A stretch of 64,000 nt of DNA from Hymenobacter busanensis (GTDB lineage Bacteria > Bacteroidota > Bacteroidia > Cytophagales > Hymenobacteraceae). Positions 32,173 through 36,646 of the stretch are shown here, piece after piece. The notes under the pieces were generated by a model. It had not been told where the DNA came from. It ran no database searches and saw only the letters and a list, made by a program, of their open reading frames with translations. Position 1 is the first letter of the stretch. Each line of letters starts with the position of its first letter. The DNA lies in contig NZ_VTWU01000009.1 in the NCBI RefSeq assembly GCF_008727865.1, positions 62,001 through 126,000 on the forward strand, written 5' to 3'. The position numbers and the translations under genes were made by a program.

Positions 32173-33453
32173 TTATTCAACGACTAACTCGGCAGCTGCC
32201 TGCTGTTGCACTACGCCGACCGGCGTGCGAACCGGACCGGTACGGGCCACAAACGTGCCGGCCCGGCGCAGGTCGTCGCGGTGGCGGAGCAGGGTGCTGA
32301 GGCGGGCGTAGCCCACCACGTAGTGGTAGCTGAAACCGGGCGCGTTCAGCTCGTCGACCACGTCGGTCAGGTGCAGCTTCTCGCGCAGGTCTTTGGGCGC
32401 GTGGCGCAGGTAAATTTCCACCTCCAAGTCGGCTGCAGGCTCTGGCACGGTAGCCGTGTTCAGCTTGGGGTAGGCGTAGCGGAAGCCGTTGCGCAGCGCC
32501 ACCAAATCGGCCAGCACGGCCGAGCCGGTAGGGTGGCCGCCGGCGCCGCGCCCGCGCCAGAAGTGCTGCCCGGCAAACTCGGCTTCCACCACCACGCCGT
32601 TGAATTCGCGCTCCACGTGGTAGAGCGGCGAGTCGTCGCCCACGAATTGAGGCGCGACGAACACCGCGGCGCTGCCATCGGACAAACGCTGCAGGGTGGC
32701 CACCACCTTGATTTTCTGCCCGCGCTCGGCCGCAAACCGAATGTCGGTGGAGCTGATGCTTTCGATGCCGAGGTTCAGCACCTGATCGGGGTTCAGCAGC
32801 AGGCCGTAGGCATGGGCGGCCAGGATTACCGCTTTGGAGCGCGGGTCGAAGGCCGCCATGTCCAGCGCCGGGTCGGTTTCGGCGAAGCCCTGGGCCTGCG
32901 CTTCGGCCAGCACGGTGGCATAATCGGCGCCGGCGGTAGTCATGCCTGTCAGCACGTAGTTCGACGAGCCGTTGAAAATGCCACTCACGCTTGGCAGCGG
33001 CTCCTGGCCGAAGTAACTGTCGAGGGTGCGAATAACCGGAATGCTGCCGCACACGGCCGCTTCGTAGAGCAAGGTGCCGCCAAACTCGCGCTGCAGCCGA
33101 ATGAGCTCGGGCAGGTGGCGGGCCACCATGGCTTTGTTGGCCGTTACCACGTTGCGGCCTTGCCGCAGGGCCCGGCTCACCAGGCGAAAGGCTTCGTTGG
33201 GGTCGTCGATGACTTCCACCAGCACGTCCAGTTCAGGGTCATCGAGCAGGTCGTCGGCGTGAAACTCGAAGCGGTCGGCGGGCAGAGGACGCAGCTTGGT
33301 GGGGTTTTTCACGGCAATGCGCCGCACCTCAAAGCCCACGTCGGGCAGCTTTTGCAGAATATCGTAGAGGCCCTGCCCCACGCAGCCAAAGCCAATGAGG
33401 CCGAGGCGCAGCGGGGCACCGTTGCCGGTGCTAGTGGGCGAAGGTTTGGACAT
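32173..33453 (-). CDS. hom: Homoserine dehydrogenase
   Basis: The protein has 426 residues. It reduces aspartate semialdehyde to homoserine with NAD(P)H. The nucleotide-binding motif is LGLIGFGCVGQGL (residues 17-29), followed by VVTANKAMVARHLPEL and LLYEAAVCGSIPVIRTL. The catalytic region FNGSSNYVLTGM, then DPALDMAAFDPRSKAVILA, with the conserved Asp and Lys, completes the domain. The C-terminal region lacks a clear ACT domain and is unlike the long allosteric Hom. It overlaps metX by 23 bases and is the last gene of the metY-metX-hom transcript, supplying the homoserine consumed by metX. Confidence 0.93.
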   Translation of the reverse strand: MSKPSPTSTGNGAPLRLGLIGFGCVGQGLYDILQKLPDVGFEVRRIAVKNPTKLRPLPADRFEFHADDLLDDPELDVLVEVIDDPNEAFRLVSRALRQGRNVVTANKAMVARHLPELIRLQREFGGTLLYEAAVCGSIPVIRTLDSYFGQEPLPSVSGIFNGSSNYVLTGMTTAGADYATVLAEAQAQGFAETDPALDMAAFDPRSKAVILAAHAYGLLLNPDQVLNLGIESISSTDIRFAAERGQKIKVVATLQRLSDGSAAVFVAPQFVGDDSPLYHVEREFNGVVVEAEFAGQHFWRGRGAGGHPTGSAVLADLVALRNGFRYAYPKLNTATVPEPAADLEVEIYLRHAPKDLREKLHLTDVVDELNAPGFSYHYVVGYARLSTLLRHRDDLRRAGTFVARTGPVRTPVGVVQQQAAAELVVE

Positions 33454-34465
33454 AAAATCGGTCGAGGAAATGCGCTATTTGCGCGGTTTCAATCAGGAAG
33501 CCGTCGTGGCCGTAAGGCGAGTCCATTTCGGCGTACATAGCCCCCGGAATATGGCGGGCCAACTCCTGCTGCTCGCTCACGGGAAACAGCACGTCGGAGG
33601 TGATGCCCAGCACCAGGGTGCGAGCCCGCACCCGCGCCAGGGCCGCCTCTACGCCGCCGCGCCCACGGCCTACGTGGTGCGAGTCCATGATTTGCGAGAG
33701 CGTGACGTAGCTGTAGGCGTTGAACCGGGCCACCAGCTTGTCGCCTTGATACTGCTGGTAGGAGCTGGCGCGGTAAAAGGCCGGCAGCGCGTCGTCGTCG
33801 GGGTCGGTTTGGGTGCGGCCGTAGGCATCGTGGCTCCGGTAGCTGAGCAGCGCAATGGCCCGCGCCGCCCGCAGGCCCGCCGAGCCGCCCTCGGGCCCGC
33901 CGCCCTGGTAAGTGCAATCGGCCTGAATGGCCAGCCGCTGCGCCTCGTTGAAGGCAATGCCCCAGGCCGAATGGCGGGCGTTGGTGGCCAGCAGCACTAC
34001 GTGCTCAAACAGCCCGGGCTGCTGCACGGCCCATTCGATGGCCTGCTGCCCGCCCAACGAGCCGCCGATGACGGTGTGAATTTTCGCAAGGCCCAAATGC
34101 TGCCGCAGCTGCTCGTGCGCCGCCACCAGGTCGCGCACCGTGAGGCGCGGGAAGGCCTGGTAGAGCGGGCGGTTGCGCGGCCCCGTGGGTGTGGCCGGCC
34201 CGGTGGTGCCGTAGCACGAGCCGAGGATGTTGGCGCACACGATATACCAATCAGCCGGGTCGAAATAGTGCCCTGGGCCCACGAGGCCCGGCCACCACTC
34301 GGCGGCGTCGGAATTGGCGGTGAGGGCGTGGCATACCCACACCACGTTGTCGCGCTCTGCGTTGAGCGTGCCGTAGGTGTGGTAAGTTATCTGCACGTCG
34401 GGCAGGGTGCCGCCGCATTCGAGCGGCAGCGGCTGCGAAAGGTGCAATACAGCAGGTTCGTTCAT
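33431..34465 (-). CDS. metX: Homoserine O-acetyltransferase
   Basis: The protein has 344 residues. MetX is an alpha/beta hydrolase-fold enzyme that transfers acetyl from acetyl-CoA to homoserine. The family motifs are clear: VQITYHTYGTLN, VVWVCHALTANSDAAEWW, YIVCANILGSCYGTTGP, FPRLTVRDLVAAHEQL and the nucleophile elbow VIGGSLGGQQ with Ser133. The late YAEMDSPYGHDGFL includes the catalytic His. The Asp of the triad lies in ITSDVLFP. The ATG at 34465 is used because it begins just before the first conserved strand; the frame is open upstream. The 23-base overlap with hom indicates translational coupling. It follows metY after a structured 224-base spacer. Confidence 0.94.
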   Translation of the reverse strand: MNEPAVLHLSQPLPLECGGTLPDVQITYHTYGTLNAERDNVVWVCHALTANSDAAEWWPGLVGPGHYFDPADWYIVCANILGSCYGTTGPATPTGPRNRPLYQAFPRLTVRDLVAAHEQLRQHLGLAKIHTVIGGSLGGQQAIEWAVQQPGLFEHVVLLATNARHSAWGIAFNEAQRLAIQADCTYQGGGPEGGSAGLRAARAIALLSYRSHDAYGRTQTDPDDDALPAFYRASSYQQYQGDKLVARFNAYSYVTLSQIMDSHHVGRGRGGVEAALARVRARTLVLGITSDVLFPVSEQQELARHIPGAMYAEMDSPYGHDGFLIETAQIAHFLDRFYVQTFAH

Positions 34466-34689
34466 GGCGTTCAGCCCCGCAAAATCAACTGAAAAAAGGC
34501 CGTAGCACCTCCACGAGGCGGTTCCGGTACTGTAAATTCCTCGCCCGCCGACTCCCGCTGGATAGAACGGGAGAGCCTGCGTCAGGCTCCTTTTCTGAAT
34601 GGGTGGAAAAGGTCGGTGGACAAGGCCCCGCGGGCTGGAAGCTAGCCGCGCCGTGGCTTGGCGGCGCGGCACGGTTTTCCCCTCCCTTG
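34466..34689 (-). other. Structured metY-metX spacer
   Basis: No gene is seen. Minus-strand hairpins include GCCGCGCCG/CGGCGCGGC (34645-34670), GAGCCTG/CAGGCTC (34573-34589) and CTCCCG/CGGGAG (34552-34573, alternative to the preceding one). No riboswitch core was recognised; the stems may influence processing or the ratio of metX to metY. Confidence 0.45.
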
Positions 34690-36264
<1,575 letters not shown>

Positions 36265-36313
36265 TCAGGCAGGAAAGGGTAGGGGCGGTCCTATGAGCGG
36301 CCCGCGGGCAGCA

Positions 36314-36481
36314 CTACTACCAACAACAGCAACAACAGCCCACAGCCGGGGCAGCGGCGCTCAACGGCGGCCGCATGACGAGGCGCTCAATGGCAGCGGC
36401 GGAAACGGACATGGCCGTGACGGGCGCCGCCGAAAAGCGGAACGAGGAGGAACTGAACGATGGAAGCGGGGTAGTTGCCAT
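36314..36481 (-). CDS. Candidate Cys-rich leader peptide upstream of metY
   Basis: A short frame lies between the SAM-I aptamer and metY. Possible ATG starts are 36481 (54 residues), 36412 (31) and 36376 (19). All end in the same sequence: five consecutive Cys codons (36337-36323, TGT TGT TGC TGT TGT), one Trp and two tandem TAG stops (36319-36317 and 36316-36314). A poly-Cys tract near a leader stop is the classical layout of amino-acid attenuation, and Cys is metabolically appropriate here. Four of the five codons are TGT in otherwise GC-rich coding DNA. The ATG at 36481 is only eight bases after the 3' strand of the aptamer stem. The tract is also a simple trinucleotide repeat, so chance is not excluded. 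Confidence 0.45.
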
Positions 36482-36489
36482 AGCACGCC

Positions 36490-36607
36490 ATTTATTTGCC
36501 CCCCGCCGATTTCGGTCGGGGGCAGGAATTGGCACCTGCCGGCTGGTGCATTGCCGGTGGTTGCCAGAGGGTCGCGGAGCCTGTTCTCTCGCCTCTTCGG
36601 AATAAAT
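36490..36607 (-). promoter_or_regulatory. SAM-I (S-box) riboswitch of the metY-metX-hom operon
   Basis: On the minus strand P1 is ATTTATT (36607-36601) with AATAAAT (36496-36490). Inside are the S-box core elements AAGAGG, GAACAGGCTC, GACCCTCTGGCAACC (with GGCAACC at 36565-36559) and GGTGCCAATTCC (36536-36525), plus a P3-like stem CCGGC/GCCGG and a strong P4-like stem TGCCCCC/GGGGGGCA. The arrangement is that of SAM-I aptamers of Bacteroidota. No terminator with a T run follows; the first ATG codons lie at or just after P1, suggesting control of translation of a leader rather than of metY directly. Confidence 0.88.
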
Positions 36608-36646
36608 CGTGTCAAGAAATCCGTTGGCCGTAAGCCGTGGATGGCA

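Follow-up and report, generated by a model that had tools for sequence, protein, structure and literature searches.

What is the function of a short reading frame, ending in five successive cysteine codons, that lies between a SAM riboswitch and metY? The question is raised by a locus in the window (the whole stretch of DNA analysed, 64,000 nt). The initial annotation had proposed that frame and riboswitch together sense the end product, SAM, and the sulfur supply, Cys-tRNA.

Parts of the locus

The features, in the order in which they would be transcribed, are these.

36489–36608, minus strand: SAM-I (S-box) riboswitch aptamer (RF00162; covariance-model score 68.5 bits, above the curated cut-off of 44.4; E = 6.9e-14)
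36490–36497, minus strand: A-rich stretch in the 3' strand of the aptamer, at positions −16 to −9 relative to the leader ATG, a candidate initiation signal
36314–36481, minus strand: leader ORF of 54 codons and two stops, ATG at 36481–36479, ending in CCCCCW
36323–36337, minus strand: five consecutive Cys codons, TGT TGT TGC TGT TGT (read from the sequence)
36322–36320, minus strand: leader Trp codon (read from the sequence)
36319–36314, minus strand: two leader stop codons (read from the sequence)
36258–36288, minus strand: pyrimidine-rich tract 3' of the leader stop, a candidate Rho-loading region (inferred)
36231–36253, minus strand: GC-rich hairpin GGCCGTCCGG..GCGGGCGGC past the pyrimidine tract (from genus alignments)
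34690–36075, minus strand: metY, O-acetylhomoserine sulfhydrylase-type PLP enzyme (Pfam PF01053, E = 1.2e-132)
33431–34672, minus strand: alpha/beta hydrolase gene after metY (from the ORF list; Pfam PF00561, E = 1.7e-17 for 33434–34492; start codon uncertain)

The annotated Cys5-Trp-stop-stop frame between SAM-I and metY was borne out by the sequence, coordinates included, as was the use of TGT for four of the five Cys codons (36337–36323). The leader ORF (36481–36314, minus strand) translates as MATTPLPSFSSSSFRFSAAPVTAMSVSAAAIERLVMRPPLSAAAPAVGCCCCCW, followed by two TAG stops. The 3' strand of P1 is the AAATAAAT region, the last part of SAM-I (36489–36608, minus strand), and P1 was closed in the predicted fold of 36470–36620 (z −1.98). 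The gap from the last base of the aptamer to the leader ATG measured 7 nt, not the 8 bases first given. A second ATG, within the P1 strand, opens an out-of-frame ORF of 34 codons (36491–36387, minus strand), which is absent from a relative of the same genus (L105).

The name metY is taken over from the initial annotation and from knowledge of the family. The window's metY shared 87% identity with the metY of Hymenobacter translucens, one of the best 80 of 591 relatives. The alpha/beta hydrolase gene is, by inference, probably metX.

We consider it likely that these parts form an mRNA leader with two inputs, serving sulfur assimilation, in which low SAM and low cysteine are both needed (an AND gate). 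The first input would be the SAM-I riboswitch, and its direct output would be translation of the leader peptide. With SAM bound, P1 would close, the A-rich −12/−13 region would be hidden, and the leader ATG or GTG would not be initiated. The second input would be the Cys run beside the leader stop, as a sensor of Cys-tRNA. When SAM is low and Cys-tRNA plentiful, the ribosome would finish the leader and leave, and transcription would end in the untranslated stretch beyond the stop. When SAM is low and Cys-tRNA scarce, the ribosome would stall at the Cys codons and transcription would continue to metY. If true, this would be two-metabolite logic in one short RNA, with no protein regulator.

Conservation of the Cys run

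By a pattern looser than that of Rfam, a SAM core was present in 202 of 226 regions upstream of metY, and 197 non-identical regions were kept (24 coreless regions and five duplicates were dropped). Sampling for metY loci covered 50 of 56 genomes with metY, and 70 of 73. From another set, of 124 genomes with metY, came 30 loci and 40 fetched stretches, the latter 40 lying outside the 197. Cysteines were counted per eight residues between riboswitch and metY, with no start codon required.

Four or more cysteines in eight residues were found in 130 of the 197 regions; the reverse strand gave 3 of 197 and first-order resampling 1.9%. These regions are kin sequences, and the counts are not independent events. 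At least five cysteines occurred in 81 regions and in none on the reverse strand, and at least three in 165 and 32, respectively.

The initial annotation had noted that the run can also be read as a CAA/CAG trinucleotide repeat on the other strand. A chance ORF over such a stretch would fit the window in that one strand of the run is repetitive and rich in TGT, but it is contradicted by the 130 against 3 of 197, and by the 1.9% of the shuffles, and we give it practically no credence. In other genomes the runs were of mixed composition (CICMCCCC, RMCMCCCCC, CMCCCIQ, CCCCNMCCCSCCC), for which a simple trinucleotide repeat is no explanation.

Named relatives of metY were the best 80 of 591 from GTDB genomes, scanned with Rfam. 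SAM-I was upstream of metY in 73 of these 80. A strict rule, requiring a start codon no more than 20 nt from P1 and three or more cysteines in eight residues, identified a Cys leader at 54 of the 73 loci from the best 80, under the labels Hymenobacter, Adhaeribacter, Pontibacter, Rufibacter, Mucilaginibacter, Pedobacter, Chryseolinea, Thermonema and Haliscomenobacter. The same rule found no Cys run at 19 of the 73, including the six Algoriphagus loci, Belliella and Sphingobacterium, whose leaders have an RMR ending. Loss of the run in relatives, which the initial annotation had regarded as evidence against a function, was seen at the 19, which count against our reading, and not at the 54.

Within the genus, the CCCCCW ending was kept in all eight metY leaders read (L111–L118, own genome included), and outside it the peptide diverged and varied in length. 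Retention of cysteine with variable flanks, as had been expected of a functional run, held across many genera. Cysteine was the final residue in 34 of the 54 named leaders, and in 53 of them no more than five residues followed the last cysteine. The window's leader shares with amino-acid leader attenuators a short ORF containing successive cognate codons, and with the poly-Cys sORF attenuators of Actinobacteria a Cys run near the stop codon. If the reading is true, many short ORFs would be added as candidate genes.

The longest Cys runs were of eight residues (L351) and ten (L385, before a sulfite reductase-type gene). In L009, L011, L028, L124, L134 and L138, about 1 kb separated the SAM-I/leader pair from metY, and the leader stayed with the riboswitch. 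An intervening gene may have entered there.

Codon choice in the run

The Cys codons of 65 GC-rich leaders were TGT and TGC in the proportion 232:144; the corresponding figure for 29 long ORFs in the window was 13:109. In AT-rich genomes, where leaders alone were counted, there were 407 TGT and 302 TGC. In attenuation generally, preference for the rarer codon would heighten the sensitivity of a leader to shortage of the charged tRNA, here Cys-tRNA. The TGT excess could also be caused by a constraint on RNA structure. Induction by cysteine shortage is sensible for cysH and sulfite reductase, and the same sign was therefore assumed for metY.

The codon choice bears on another reading, in which the product is a functional Cys-rich micropeptide that binds metals or thiols, or arrests as a nascent chain, and is not a sensor of tRNA charge. 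Spaced Cys/Met patterns in some leaders (CICMCCCC, CCCCMPMRRACC) would suit such a peptide. The TGT bias argues against it, as do the sequence outside the run, which diverges even among members of the genus, the sulfur-assimilation genes that follow, and the Met-containing versions at some SAM-less metY (both described below). We regard a micropeptide as very unlikely.

Position of the leader start

Of 109 non-redundant leader starts, 101 were separated from P1 by 6–12 nt. At these 109 starts, the frequency of A was 83% at −12, 70% at −13, 52% at −6 and 46% at −3. Positions −12 and −13 lay inside the aptamer 3' strand in 104 and 105 of them, respectively. The last six bases of the aptamer were 64% A with a leader (72 cases) and 39% A without one (77 cases).

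Initiation in Bacteroidia is described, in the part of the source available to us, as relying on upstream adenines at −3, −6, −12 and −13 and on low structure, with Shine-Dalgarno sequences not generally used (PMC9976891). Since the initiation adenines are inside the aptamer 3' strand, a P1 closed by SAM should hide the leader start, judging from the anatomy. The narrow spacing and the A-rich initiation region in the 3' strand lend support, at the level of sequence, to the earlier proposal that SAM may control translation of the leader itself. This suggested how SAM-I could work in Bacteroidia, by concealing the adenines upstream of a leader start. If true, it would mean widespread riboswitch control of a sensor peptide instead of the gene.

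The start context in the window, GGGGGCAAATAAATGGCGTGCT-ATG, has A at −12, but T instead of A at −13 and G at −3, which counts against this reading. The leader start is preceded by the 120-nt aptamer, so the mRNA should begin further upstream.

Genes behind the leader

Gene context was read for 149 riboswitches from two families, f1 (the window's) and f3. By resemblance to named loci, f1 is Hymenobacteraceae, f3 is Sphingobacteriaceae and the window is Hymenobacter-like. The f1 set contained 93 SAM-I matches. The f3 set contained 57 in 26 genomes, of which 56 were usable. The gene-context tabulation omits 14 matches that lie before metY, one below the cut-off, and L409, which was misplaced. 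Genes were classed by sequence motif, and Pfam, run on ten proteins only, supported one example each of PAPS reductase, NIR_SIR, amino acid permease, TonB plug and homocysteine methyltransferase.

The Cys leader was found behind SAM-I at 25 of 28 metY loci (f1 and f3). In f1 it was present at cysH (13/13), sulfite reductase (4/4), an APC permease (12/12) and an ATP-grasp gene (9/9), and also at TonB-type genes (2/3) and unclassified genes (3/3). On the other hand, only 1 of 62 Met-only genes (metH, hom, metE, metF and CGL/MGL-type; f1 and f3) had one. This single case, L373, is a TTG-started ORF overlapping metH, and the call is probably due to chance.

The pattern was weaker in f3, where the leader was present at three of six metX genes and absent from the one cysH, the three TonB-type and the two NifS-type genes. 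The riboswitches without a Cys leader at cysH, at the TonB-type genes and at the other three metX genes of f3 count against our reading.

SAM-I riboswitches with and without the leader in the same genomes therefore split broadly into those at genes of sulfur assimilation or uptake and those at genes of methionine synthesis. As in an amino-acid leader attenuator, the operon belongs to the cognate pathway (metY, cysH, sulfite reductase); the Cys-leader set further includes genes whose role is unclear (permease, ATP-grasp and TonB-type). The role in sulfur supply first suggested for the leader was backed by this context, with the leader at metY and at cysH and sulfite reductase of f1, and not at metH.

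The riboswitch–leader pairing was kept in many relatives, mostly at sulfur-assimilation genes. This suggested that the cells check both SAM and cysteine before spending sulfur. The leader is real and conserved, and is best read as a two-signal sulfur leader. With the leader at metY and not at metH in the same genomes, the gate logic is directly testable by reporters.

Genes downstream at L104, L108, L347, L358, L362 and L374 were of the RimK-like ATP-grasp type. The occurrence of the SAM-I and Cys-leader pair at all nine ATP-grasp genes suggests a sulfur-related function for them. In the SAM-I leaders of metH at L001, L088–L090, L095 and L098–L100, the sequence CTTTCYGGATA can pair with a partial copy beside the metH start, and this is likely a leaderless translational platform.

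Other arrangements at metY

In a distant family from another class of the Bacteroidota phylum (f21), 44 genomes had metY; 30 loci were read, and 20 of these had a SAM core. A Met/Cys-rich mini-ORF was found about 100–150 nt upstream of the metY SAM-I in 18 of the 20 (none on the reverse strand), with L300 and L313, whose core was misplaced far upstream, scored as misses. The arrangement (loci L297–L325 and L168; for example, MKFSKPNTACKPACTCMCMCMMCT in L297) is the reverse of the order in the window. In the f21 ORFs, Met codons occur among the Cys codons despite the presence of SAM-I, which counts against our reading. Since Met codons and SAM-I are found together in f21, we abandoned the idea that such codons are confined to loci lacking SAM-I.

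In f21, P1 cannot gate the start of an ORF that lies upstream of the riboswitch. This speaks for the possibility that riboswitch and leader are independent, either signal being enough or the two being additive, and that P1 is no gate on leader translation. SAM-I and Cys or Met leaders also being found singly points the same way. In the window's lineage, however, the narrow spacing of 6–12 nt and the initiation adenines inside the aptamer argue for a gate, and we hold independence to be improbable.

Among metY regions lacking a SAM core, 7 of 30 had a Met/Cys-rich ORF (none on the reverse strand). Five of the seven ORFs had several Met codons, two of these mixed with Cys, and two had Cys only. 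Short Met- or Met/Cys-rich ORFs precede the SAM-coreless metY of L071, L155, L156, L165 and L280, for example MKTTIKNIISLTNLTMAMRMMMRMKIFVCEGM.

We lean slightly towards a nested RNA gate in several Bacteroidota lineages, in which the output of the riboswitch is translation of a Cys-sensing leader, sulfur-assimilation genes would require low SAM and low Cys-tRNA at once, and Met-only genes have a plain SAM-I, with a pairing of its own in f21 and Met-containing leaders at some metY genes where SAM-I is missing.

None of the 31 SAM-core loci among 40 further metY regions, mainly from other classes, had five Met/Cys per ten residues between SAM-I and metY. In Sphingobacterium-type loci (L054, L064, L068, L069 and L075, also L208 and L211), the leader after SAM-I was kept, ended in ..RMR and had no Cys run. 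This ending is possibly another stalling signal.

Relation to known systems

In leaders of the tnaC and mgtL type, the position of the ribosome on a short leader ORF decides the access of Rho, and stalling has causes other than cysteine starvation. Unlike the window's leader, they are not known to carry a SAM riboswitch. The poly-Cys leaders of Actinobacteria are reportedly leaderless short ORFs, according to a 2020 title by Canestrari and colleagues.

The accessible part of Seliverstov et al. 2005 (PMC1262725) describes the actinobacterial leaders as short ORFs with Cys codons near the stop, before cys or cbs genes. It gives the mycobacterial Cys-run leaders no conserved terminator hairpins, proposes Rho, and also draws the comparison with tna. 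The present leaders are like these, as far as that part goes, in having Cys codons near the stop, no general terminator and Rho as a candidate. They differ in being preceded by a SAM-I aptamer that adjoins the start codon, and in belonging to another phylum and other genes; neither that part of PMC1262725 nor the 2020 title mentions a riboswitch.

A Xanthomonas SAM-I riboswitch, in the portion of the report available, also senses uncharged initiator tRNA and exerts mainly translational control (PMC7270179). The likeness is a second, tRNA-linked input on the expression platform of SAM-I at a met operon. The Xanthomonas RNA, as described there, binds tRNA directly, whereas here a translated Cys-codon leader would report the charging of Cys-tRNA. 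In Bacillus clausii, metE is preceded by tandem SAM-I and AdoCbl riboswitches (PMC2258182, as excerpted). Two metabolite inputs in one met-gene leader are common to both, but in the excerpt the B. clausii aptamers control termination independently, and without a leader peptide.

For amino-acid operons of Flavobacterium psychrophilum, the accessible part of a transcriptome study gives strong clues of leader-peptide attenuation (PMC9723704). A 2010 survey, in the part available, extended to Firmicutes the leader-peptide systems already known in Proteobacteria and Actinobacteria (PMC2965389). We found no report of a Cys leader in series behind a SAM riboswitch in the open-access literature. The components are already known, and the series arrangement of SAM-I and Cys leader appears to be new as far as the open-access literature was searched.

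Transcription beyond the leader stop

The distance from the leader stop to the first long ORF was 68–436 nt, and at least 100 nt in 52 of 58 cases, which makes simple translational coupling improbable. No enrichment of intrinsic terminators was seen past the leader stop (11/58, with 8.6 expected), and a general intrinsic terminator at this position was rejected.

Pyrimidine tracts 0–45 nt after the leader stop were found in 56 of 191 leaders, against 17.2 in shuffles. Further downstream the numbers were 12/188 against 7.5 and 10/167 against 8.8. The C-minus-G rut measure after the leader was weakly raised (37/191 against 27.3). Given the lack of U-tract terminator enrichment past the leader and the pyrimidine tract behind the stop, Rho is the candidate terminator that we favor. 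The finding would point to unconventional, possibly Rho-based, attenuation in the Bacteroidota phylum.

Terminator-like sites within 90 nt after P1 were found at 7 of 60 riboswitches placed in the leader group (1.45 expected) and at 6 of 33 in the leaderless group (0.45 expected). One of the seven was L373, the metH locus, and the other six were inside the leader ORF, 31–58 nt after P1. These sites near P1, above chance, and the weak C-minus-G measure count against our reading. With six sites inside the leader ORF, lost leader translation could in some genomes itself permit intrinsic termination. An intrinsic terminator near P1 was rejected as a general feature, at 7 of 60 in the leader group, and retained as a rival. 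The hairpins with T-runs inside the leader ORF are those of L091, L094, L002, L337, L340 and L346.

A more classical mechanism was also weighed, namely a trp-type attenuator, or an intrinsic terminator in or after the leader. The position of the ribosome would then pick the hairpin, and the riboswitch would only set leader translation. The terminator-like sites inside the leader ORF at six loci, such as the cysH loci L091 and L094, would fit this.

Structures past the stop bear on it as well. The largest mean folding excess was in 40-nt segments beginning 30 nt past the leader stop. In 14 Pedobacter-type loci, whose structure was drawn from one of the 14 sequences, a downstream hairpin covaried, helix 4 having changes on both sides in four of five pairs and 97.1% of cells paired. 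A hairpin over the Cys run was paired in 83.9% of cells. The covarying hairpin favors a trp-type attenuator, but the helices of this set look compatible and not exclusive.

In the single-sequence fold of the window, the 3' strand of the downstream hairpin paired instead with the segment after the stop, as such an attenuator would have it, but the fold was not significant (z −1.29; 24 of 200 shuffles as good), and the pairing serves as no more than a lead. Pairing between Cys run and post-stop segment was in the top 5% for 19 of 126 AT-rich leaders (6.3 expected), whereas a universal 1:2 / 2:4 alternative pairing was no better than control in GC-rich genomes. Exclusive antiterminator and terminator hairpins with a U-tract, as in a textbook attenuator, were not a general feature, and U-tract terminators were at 11 of 58 against 8.6. 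We regard the trp-type or intrinsic mechanism as doubtful, if a real possibility.

The Cys-run leader in series with SAM-I, as originally proposed for the window, was supported; a classical hairpin attenuator was not, given the terminator counts and the absence of a universal alternative pairing. The preferred reading remains the two-input leader with Rho as its candidate terminator. For three clades (Hymenobacter outside the genus, Cyclobacteriaceae-type and Adhaeribacter-type), automatic alignment did not yield a consensus structure that could be used.

Past the leader stop, L020, L021, L027 and L032 shared GCC..GTGAC.GG within a stem. The ends of this stem covaried by eye (TAGCC/GGCTA, TAATC/GATTA and TAAGC/GCTTA), and ahead of it came a GCAACA segment, complementary in sequence to the Cys run.
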